64,000 bases of DNA. It comes from Halostagnicola larsenii XH-48 (GTDB lineage Archaea; Halobacteriota; Halobacteria; Halobacteriales; Natrialbaceae). The translations under genes were made by a program, and so were the position numbers. The number at the start of each line of letters is the position of its first letter. The first letter of the stretch is position 1. Below, piece by piece: positions 56,657-64,000 of the stretch. A model generated the notes under the pieces. The model made no database searches. It saw only the letters and a list, made by a program, of their open reading frames with translations, and was not told the origin of the DNA. The DNA is taken from positions 1,116,001-1,180,000 of the forward strand of contig NZ_CP007055.1 of assembly GCF_000517625.1 (NCBI RefSeq). The letters are read 5' to 3'.

Positions 56657-56803
56657 ATGCGAGACGAACAAGAGATCCGCGAGCAGTACGAATTCCTCAC
56701 GGAGCAACTCGAGAGCGACGAGATGACCCACGACGGCGTCGAACAGATGTTTACCTACTATAAGCGCGCGTTGGGGTGGGCACTCGAGGAAGAACACATG
56801 TGA
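56657..56803 (+). CDS. 48-residue acidic protein
   Basis: The frame encodes an acidic helical small protein (M-R-D-E-Q-E-I-R-E-Q-Y-E-F-L-T-E-Q-L) ending E-E-H-M, with aromatic spacing M-F-T-Y-Y-K-R-A-L-G-W-A-L in the middle. Acid content and amphipathic period fit haloarchaeal coding DNA, though it is below usual length cutoffs. It stands alone upstream of the candidate RNA. No family is recognised. Confidence 0.66.
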   Translation: MRDEQEIREQYEFLTEQLESDEMTHDGVEQMFTYYKRALGWALEEEHM

Positions 56804-56856
56804 CGACTACCGGTAATCGCCACTGACATATTACTCAGTCATCCATTGTCGGTACC

Positions 56857-56866
56857 TTTAAGTATA
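56857..56866 (+). promoter_or_regulatory. TATA box of the candidate RNA
   Basis: TTTAAGTATA at 56857-56866 is a good haloarchaeal TATA box. Its centre is about 25 bases before 56886, exactly where hairpin 1 of the candidate RNA starts, and no ATG start follows at a sensible distance. Confidence 0.5.
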
Positions 56867-56885
56867 CCGAGCCAATTTTTTCAGT

Positions 56886-56985
56886 TGACGCTTCGCTTGG
56901 AGGGCCGAAGCGTCAGCGGGGACCAATTCAGGGCGGCAAGCAACCGCGTGGCATTTTTCCGCCACGCGGTTTGCTTTCCTGTTTA
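56886..56985 (+). ncRNA. candidate structured non-coding RNA of unknown family
   Basis: Two strong hairpins follow the TATA box. Hairpin 1: TGACGCTTCG (56886-56895) with CGAAGCGTCA (56906-56915), a perfect 10-bp stem with a 10-base loop. Hairpin 2: AAGCAACCGCGTGGC (56938-56952) with GCCACGCGGTTTGCTT (56961-56976), 15 bp with one bulged T. A 22-base linker joins them and a T-rich tail follows. No open frame spans it. It matches no RNA I recognise; the 3' end is a guess. A transcript-end structure for another gene is an alternative, but no gene ends here on the plus strand except the 48-residue frame 80 bases upstream. Confidence 0.5.
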
Positions 56986-57252
56986 CGGACGACATCTCTG
57001 TTGATTCTTCGAGAGCGACGCGAGTGGTATCCTCATCTCGACGTTGCGCTGCCGAGTAACTTCTGGCTCGAGACCGGGATAATTGTATCCATCAAGATGC
57101 TCTGAAAGCTAAACATGAACTGCGTGTTATGTGTGAAACCGCGGTAAACCCCTCACCAGCACAATACGTACTGATGAATCCATTACGTGTGCGGCACTCG
57201 GAAAACGGACGGTTTGATCGAAACAACCCGACATGTTTATTAAATTTCGACA

Positions 57253-57273
57253 GTAAGTACAACCGGTACTTAC
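57253..57273. promoter_or_regulatory. PadR operator, GTAAGTAC-N5-GTACTTAC
   Basis: A perfect 8-bp inverted repeat GTAAGTAC (57253-57260) with GTACTTAC (57266-57273) and a 5-base spacer lies directly before the PadR start at 57277, downstream of the AT-rich TATA region (57237-57246). PadR regulators commonly repress themselves from such dyads over the start site. Confidence 0.6.
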
Positions 57274-57276
57274 CCA

Positions 57277-57552
57277 ATGTACGACCTGACAGGATTTCAG
57301 CGTGACCTACTCTACGTCATCGCTGGCGAGGAGGAACCGCACGGACTGGCCATCAAGGAGGAACTCGAGCAGTACTACGAAAAGGAGATTCATCACGGAC
57401 GACTGTACCCGAACCTCGATACCCTCGTCGACAAAGGACTCGTCGAAAAAGGACGCCGAGACAGGCGGACGAATTTCTACACGCTCACTCGACGCGGTCA
57501 GCGCGAACTCGAGGCCCGGCGCGAGTGGGAGACACAGTACGTAGACCTCTAA
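57277..57552 (+). CDS. PadR-family transcriptional regulator
   Basis: The 91-residue regulator is a PadR winged helix: M-Y-D-L-T-G-F-Q-R-D-L-L-Y-V-I-A, P-H-G-L-A-I-K-E-E-L-E-Q-Y-Y, G-R-L-Y-P-N-L-D-T-L-V-D-K-G-L-V-E-K and the wing R-R-T-N-F-Y-T-L-T-R-R-G. Unlike larger PadR members it lacks a C-terminal dimer domain. The ATG starts 3 bases after its operator, suggesting autoregulation. Possible targets are itself and the MgtC/DUF4010 gene 178 bases downstream. Confidence 0.9.
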   Translation: MYDLTGFQRDLLYVIAGEEEPHGLAIKEELEQYYEKEIHHGRLYPNLDTLVDKGLVEKGRRDRRTNFYTLTRRGQRELEARREWETQYVDL

Positions 57553-57590: not shown

Positions 57591-57730
57591 TGAGTAGTAT
57601 CGCCGTTTCGCGGGTCGTTCTCGAATTCGGGTGCGTGCTCTGCTTTTCGTCGGCCTCAAAGCAGAGCACATCAACACCGTAAACCGGAGCACATCGCCGC
57701 CCCAAACCGGATACGTTCGCGTACGTCAAT

Positions 57731-63890: not shown

Positions 63891-64000
63891 ATGGGAAGGC
63901 TATCCGAGCTGTTCGAACCCGAGACCGTCGCCGTCATCGGCGCGACCGACCGCAAGGGTGCGGTCGGTCGGGCGATCCTCGAGAACCTCTCGAGCGGCTT
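63891..64000 (+). CDS. partial: ADP-forming acyl-CoA synthetase (acetate--CoA ligase), N-terminal end
   Basis: Only 36 residues are in the window: M-G-R-L-S-E-L-F-E-P-E-T-V-A-V-I-G-A-T-D, then K-G-A-V-G-R-A-I-L-E-N-L. This is the CoA-binding domain start of the archaeal ADP-forming acetyl/acyl-CoA synthetase, which makes ATP from acyl-CoA. The gene runs off the right edge. Confidence 0.8.
   Translation, partial: MGRLSELFEPETVAVIGATDRKGAVGRAILENLSSG

Follow-up and report, generated by a model that had tools for sequence, protein, structure and literature searches.

A candidate noncoding RNA gene with a nearly invariant 5' hairpin and linker, conserved across haloarchaea

The window considered here is the whole 64-kb stretch of DNA that was analysed (G000:C1:1116001-1180000), which belongs to a genome of 4.13 Mb. 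Between the stop codon of the small-protein gene sp48 at 56803 and the start of a padR gene at 57277, the + strand very probably holds a transcribed and functional RNA gene (Table 1) which, having its own promoter, is situated as an intergenic sRNA. From 56886 onwards its parts are TGACGCTTCG, the loop CTTGGAGGGC, CGAAGCGTCA, GCGGGGACCAATTCAGGGCGGCAAGC, a further long hairpin and TTT. In hairpin 1 (HP1) the stem is blunt, with 10 bp and 100% complementary arms, and the 10-nt loop terminates in the invariant TGGAGGGC. In hairpin 2 (HP2) an apical stem of 11 perfect pairs (56942-56952 with 56961-56971) stands above a one-nucleotide bulge and then AAGC/GCTT, and the last part of the linker pairs into the base of this hairpin. 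A first-pass annotation of 56857-56985 had drawn the first hairpin as a perfect 10-bp stem and the second with one bulge, and both structures were recovered here. For the column counts we used 185 distinct copies of the RNA, which are what remains of 208 after removal of 23 redundant ones and include loci found by an exact 27-mer of the core. The linker segment AATTCAGGGCGGC was retained by most of these copies according to the per-position counts, and TTT followed the linker in 95.7% of them, a value to be read as an upper bound since some of the runs are in fact the HP2 loop.

Table 1. Features of the RNA locus and its two neighbours (window positions)
Feature	Position	Strand	Details and basis
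sp48, 48-aa small protein gene, upstream neighbour	56657..56803	+	conserved synteny
Promoter: conserved upstream element and TATA box	56848..56866	+	column frequencies, 185 distinct copies
RNA, ~99 nt	56886..56984	+	ends placed from TATA spacing and T run
Hairpin 1 (HP1)	56886..56915	+	arms 56886-56895 / 56906-56915; stem TGACGCTTCG / CGAAGCGTCA
Linker, G-rich	56916..56941	+	GCGGGGACC invariant, then AATTCAGGGCGGC, AAGC; 31/31 family copies, 185-copy counts
Hairpin 2 (HP2)	56929..56981	+	CAGG/CCTG base, AAGC/GCTT, 11-bp apical stem; covariation
T run 3' of HP2, probable 3' end or terminator	56982..56984	+	185-copy counts
PadR-family regulator gene, downstream neighbour	57277..57552	+	PF03551, E 7e-18

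The TATA box TTTAAGTATA occupies 56857-56866, and its first base lies exactly 29 nt before the start of HP1. It is preceded by an element with the consensus G-x-C-G-(G/T)-(T/C)-A, spanning -38 to -32, and from general knowledge of archaeal promoters we take the two to be a BRE plus TATA. Among the 185 distinct copies, C-36, G-35 and A-32 were found in 94%, 90% and 96%, respectively, and a TATA-like hexamer started at -29 in 176 copies, at -30 in four and at -28 and -27 in one each, and was absent in three. Because the TATA spacing is conserved and agrees with the general geometry of archaeal promoters, transcription most likely begins with the first base of HP1, as had been proposed from the placement of the box. 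The first-pass annotation also saw no open frame in the region. Taken literally this was incorrect, because a mechanically called ORF of 52 aa with a TTG start (56846-57004) crosses the RNA. However, the frame is not a coding one. Indels of 1 nt in the HP1 loop, which leave 2, 3 or 4 nt before TGGAGGGC, fall between invariant blocks, and the 5' arm of HP2 takes 94 distinct sequences among 98 copies, so that no reading frame is conserved.

The region 56884-56985 folds with an energy of -54.2 kcal/mol (z = -6.0), which was equalled by none of 200 shuffles. Perfect 10-bp stem-loops with loops of 3-12 nt occur at four places in the whole 64 kb, and two of these are within the RNA. The density of strong structure had been described as unlike the rest of the window; this holds for the perfect stem-loops and fails for raw fold energy, as 8 of 2506 windows of 102 nt on both strands, or 2 of 1634 with a similar G+C content, equal or beat the RNA. 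One of the four perfect stem-loop places is a strong hairpin at 57635-57669, between padR and a MgtC/DUF4010 gene, and a perfect 10-bp stem-loop is also found near the window end (63943-63970). The opposite strand of the RNA region folds well too (z = -4.2) because of the inverted repeats, and the strand therefore had to be decided by comparison.

Comparison of the copies separated the two hairpins. Over the whole structure 94.6% of cells were paired, and compensatory double changes were counted in 395 cells, against 94.6 +/- 9.8 in shuffles; the covariation score was 0.373, compared to 0.125 for shuffles and 0.041-0.065 for slid pairings, although these values come from an alignment fitted to the model, which leans towards it. 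Compensatory changes were seen at all 20 pairs of HP2. In its apical stem the G-U cells outnumbered the A-C cells by 58 to 9, on which we identify the + strand as the RNA; judged from this bias, it is the strand selected to pair. In HP1, by contrast, 9 of 13 pairs never vary in the 98 copies and compensatory double changes are absent, in a set that includes loci picked by the exact 27-mer, by which core conservation is biased upward. The compensatory changes that the first-pass annotation had suggested looking for in other haloarchaea are thus present in HP2 and lacking in HP1.

The 5' part of the RNA is conserved in its letters. Its first 56 nt are identical in the 31 family copies except for one inserted T in the loop. 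RNA positions 4-10 never change among the 185 distinct copies, and the loop end, the 3' arm of HP1 and GCGGGGACC are fixed in them as well, the last partly through the selection of rows by the 27-mer. This selection does not seem to create the pattern, because the 30 loci taken from the covariance search, which is independent of the 27-mer, all contain it, with at most a T/A difference at its first base. Without 27-mer selection, 14 genomes of eight families gave 35 invariant columns among the 37 of the core. For the 16S rRNA of the same 14 genomes the number was 1075 of 1479 columns, and 36 or more invariant columns were reached by 155 of the 1443 37-column windows. The conservation of HP1 and the linker equals that of the best-conserved tenth of 16S rRNA.

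The RNA was found by DNA search in 5/5 genomes of the genus, in 123/125 genomes and 29/29 genera of the family (111/111 genomes of good quality), and in 383/392 genomes and 91/95 genera of the order (343/345 of good quality). The nine genomes of the order in which this search did not find it all belong to families f2, f9 and f11 and have sizes of 0.9-2.3 Mb. A covariance model, R1, built on the 31 family copies, was positive in 27 of 30 genomes and 13 of 16 families, with no match in f2, f9 and f11, each represented by one genome. These three families (G125, G132, G134 and relatives) are members of the same order with small genomes, and they may help to date the origin of the RNA. Among 294 genomes of the phylum, model R1 matched 52, every one within this order; the non-matching genomes listed include one from the order (G134), and the others share only the phylum. 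The exact 27-mer matched at least 119 stretches in the named genome collection, and among the matches listed all were titled haloarchaea, or uncultured or halophilic archaea. The RNA is therefore near-universal in haloarchaea, and it probably has an important job.

The surroundings of the RNA are old but variable. The sp48 protein (MRDEQEIREQYEF...EEEHM) shows 62-100% identity across many haloarchaeal loci and matched no Pfam or NCBIfam model. The sp48-RNA-padR arrangement of the window is shared by Haloferax denitrificans (L141) and is therefore old. Within 1.5 kb of the RNA, sp48 was present at 114 and padR at 116 of 181 loci, a set which is redundant between collections and in which some loci end at contig ends. 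The distance between padR and the RNA varies, padR lies on the opposite side at some loci (L056, L128, L129), and at least in the family it has a TATA-containing upstream region of its own. At 40 of the 181 loci none of sp48, padR and DUF7117 is near the RNA. Two copies of the RNA are carried by all 15 genomes of a Haloferax-like genus, the second lying between a gene that we would name DUF5813-like and a chemotaxis-receptor gene, at 196-447 nt from the latter, which is of the MCP type. Both the 40 loci and these second copies count in support of action in trans. Halogranum rubrum gave three matching records (L104, L149, L179), and in one of its copies the linker and hairpin 2 are much shortened.

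Two further repeats were noticed around the RNA. A near-perfect palindrome, GTGACGACTACCGGTAATCGCCAC (56800-56823), spans the sp48 stop codon just 5' of the RNA promoter. An inverted repeat, GTAAGTAC-AACCG-GTACTTAC, lies immediately 5' of the padR start (57251-57276), is retained by some relatives and may be a self-operator of PadR. A PadR operator common to padR and the RNA promoter was considered and set aside, because the strict pattern of the padR-proximal repeat matched only 19 of 113 upstream regions.

Known classes of RNA and mobile DNA were compared with the locus. With Rfam 15 at gathering scores, only two tRNAs were detected in the window, and the RNA had no match; at E values up to 10, the hits in 56800-57050 were at chance level and on the other strand, the best being a mycobacterial sRNA with 17.1 bits where 72 are needed. 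H/ACA guide RNAs have a hairpin with an internal guide pocket and, immediately 3' to it, an ACA box, and the boxes of C/D guide RNAs are RUGAUGA (C) and CUGA (D). Inspection of the aligned copies by eye showed neither a conserved ACA on the 3' side of either hairpin nor an internal loop within the HP1 stem, and boxes C and D are absent from the conserved part of the RNA, so both guide classes were rejected. This agrees with the earlier impression that RNase P, SRP, box C/D and H/ACA features are not matched. The first-pass annotation would have given up its proposal if the stems were unconserved or belonged to a mobile element. The stems are conserved, and the RNA of a mobile element, for example of the IS200/IS605 kind, was rejected because there is one match in the own genome and the synteny is stable, while the exact 27-mer had no match in viral contigs and the core none in phage records. 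Two plasmid records, from Haloarcula and Halorubrum, contain the core, which is unannotated there. With the conserved promoter, the covariation of HP2 and the lack of an Rfam match, the sequence data support the original suggestion of a promoter-driven, hairpin-rich noncoding RNA.

The explanation that we favour, and consider probable on the comparative data, is an independently transcribed ncRNA of ~99 nt, encoded by a near-universal haloarchaeal gene, which would act in trans with its 5' domain bound to a partner. The mechanistic part of this explanation is put forward tentatively. HP2 and the U-rich end would terminate and protect the RNA, and only the structure of HP2 would matter. The working part would be the 5' domain, made up of the blunt HP1, its GGAGG-containing loop and the linker GCGGGGACC. 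Because HP1 is invariant without compensation and HP2 keeps structure only, we suggest that sequence is what is recognised in HP1 and the linker, and that HP2 serves as a generic 3' end. The conserved partner of the 5' domain would most likely be an RNA-binding protein or the ribosome, and the G-rich loop and linker may be offered for short base pairing with C/U-rich RNA sites. A bolder form of the idea, possible but rather doubtful, is that this is a lineage-wide housekeeping RNA of a breadth comparable to that of SRP and RNase P RNA, that it arose at or near the haloarchaeal root and that its HP1 and linker form the core of an undescribed RNP or of a ribosome-bound particle. When the loop, the linker and HP1 were paired with 16S and 23S rRNA, the energies were within the range of 100-shuffle controls. 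Against SRP and RNase P RNA only complementary stretches of 7-8 nt with G-U pairs appeared, and the core resembled rRNA weakly in the sense direction (scores 11 and 13), both being comparisons run without a control.

Pairing could also be the main function rather than an accessory one. The exposed loop UGGAGGGC and the linker GCGGGGACC of a regulatory sRNA might seed on C-rich sites in mRNAs, and HP1 would then mainly present the loop. The exposed G-rich segments and the terminator-like 3' hairpin would suit such an RNA, and the H. volcanii s194 has a reported 8-nt loop complement to the cstA mRNA (PMC6104027). However, compensation would be expected in a stem whose sole role is to present a loop, and HP1 has none in 98 copies where HP2 has hundreds of cells, so this seems unlikely. 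Another possibility is docking to the small ribosomal subunit, in which the GGAGG of the loop would pair with the CCUCC near the 3' terminus of 16S rRNA and compete with Shine-Dalgarno leaders. An invariant UGGAGGG is present within the loop, all 17 16S copies read (14 genomes) finish at the 3' end in ...GGATCACCTCC and then A or T, and H. volcanii is reported to work without a Shine-Dalgarno mechanism (PMC6104027). But only 5-6 bp would form, the energy between loop and 16S is no better than for shuffled loops, part of the loop is predicted to be paired, and the invariant U before GGAGG fits the CCUCCA of some genomes and not the CCUCCU of others; we regard this docking as improbable.

We give very little credence to two readings in which there is no separate trans-acting RNA. 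The element might act in cis as the 3' end of sp48 or as a leader or attenuator of padR, and the frequent presence of both genes within 1.5 kb speaks for this. It is opposed by the promoter of the RNA at fixed spacing and by the separate TATA region of padR, at least in the family. A padR leader, attenuator or riboswitch was rejected for the same separate promoters, the variable distance and orientation of padR, and the paralogues, which adjoin unrelated genes and have no padR. Alternatively, the conserved part might be a DNA site such as an operator or a recombination or segregation site, since the inverted repeat of HP1, a 10-10-10 palindrome located at the start point, is invariant and immediately follows the TATA box. 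Yet the linker outside the palindrome is equally invariant, and HP2 covaries with the G-U bias towards one strand described above, and both facts speak against such a site.

Neither in Rfam nor in the literature searched is there an account of the family, of how universal it is or of its invariant domain, and six pieces of the core sequence, as spelled out, gave no match in that literature. Nevertheless, single members have probably been seen already, and even deleted. In H. volcanii, 27 sRNAs were deleted, and H225.2R (19 genomes), hts10 (18) and htsf_359 (12) were widely conserved (PMC3956466). The 161-nt hts10 (HVO_2213s), at 2078656-2078816 F of the chromosome, was both predicted and detected by sequencing, 18 further haloarchaeal genomes contain it, and its deletion gave only mild phenotypes (PMC3956466). 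In H. mediterranei, HM4_V (143 nt) lies between htr18-1 and HFX_2270 (PMC5852579). Since the second Haloferax copy adjoins an MCP-type receptor gene, at what appears to be the location of hts10 and of HM4_V, the latter beside an htr gene, these two are probably published names of this copy. Both are longer than the ~99 nt of the window RNA, which is the copy at the ancestral locus and hence the other paralogue. If hts10 is this RNA, its mild deletion phenotypes would fit redundancy with the other copy and would equally fit a minor role. As each of the 15 Haloferax-like genomes has two copies, the role of the RNA may have been missed in studies with single deletions.

Other reported RNAs may be relevant by description only, namely STRG.2577.4, a 111-nt intergenic RNA of H. 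volcanii with 905,191 TPM (PMC5892119), and the abundant, ribosome-occupied sRNA_60 and sRNA_61 (PMC12482152). HVO_2908s and H3.2 are common to the vesicles of H. volcanii and Hbt. salinarum (PMC10927574), 22 conserved RNAs of Halobacteria without function have been reported (PMC7002113), and the available part of PMC2864571 contained no haloarchaeal motif under the terms searched. The conservation of haloarchaeal sRNAs has been called extremely low (PMC3956466). A near-universal RNA with an invariant 5' domain is the opposite of this, and the covariance model can now be used to annotate it across haloarchaeal genomes and RNA-seq sets. No TATA-binding-protein gene, which we take HVO_1727 to be, was noticed at the Haloferax RNA loci examined, and in this the RNA seems to differ from H225.2R (HVO_1727s2). 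The latter resembles it in length and breadth, with 96 nt and 19 further haloarchaeal genomes, and its deletion was pleiotropic (PMC3956466). The ribosome-associated rancRNA_s194 of H. volcanii is likewise an independent RNA from an intergenic region, its TATA box lying 28 nt before the start (PMC6104027), but it is a different RNA. In this genome SRP and RNase P RNA are encoded elsewhere (G000:C1:979944-980255 and 295805-296242), and the RNA matches neither in Rfam; it is like them in breadth only, being near-universal with an extremely conserved core.
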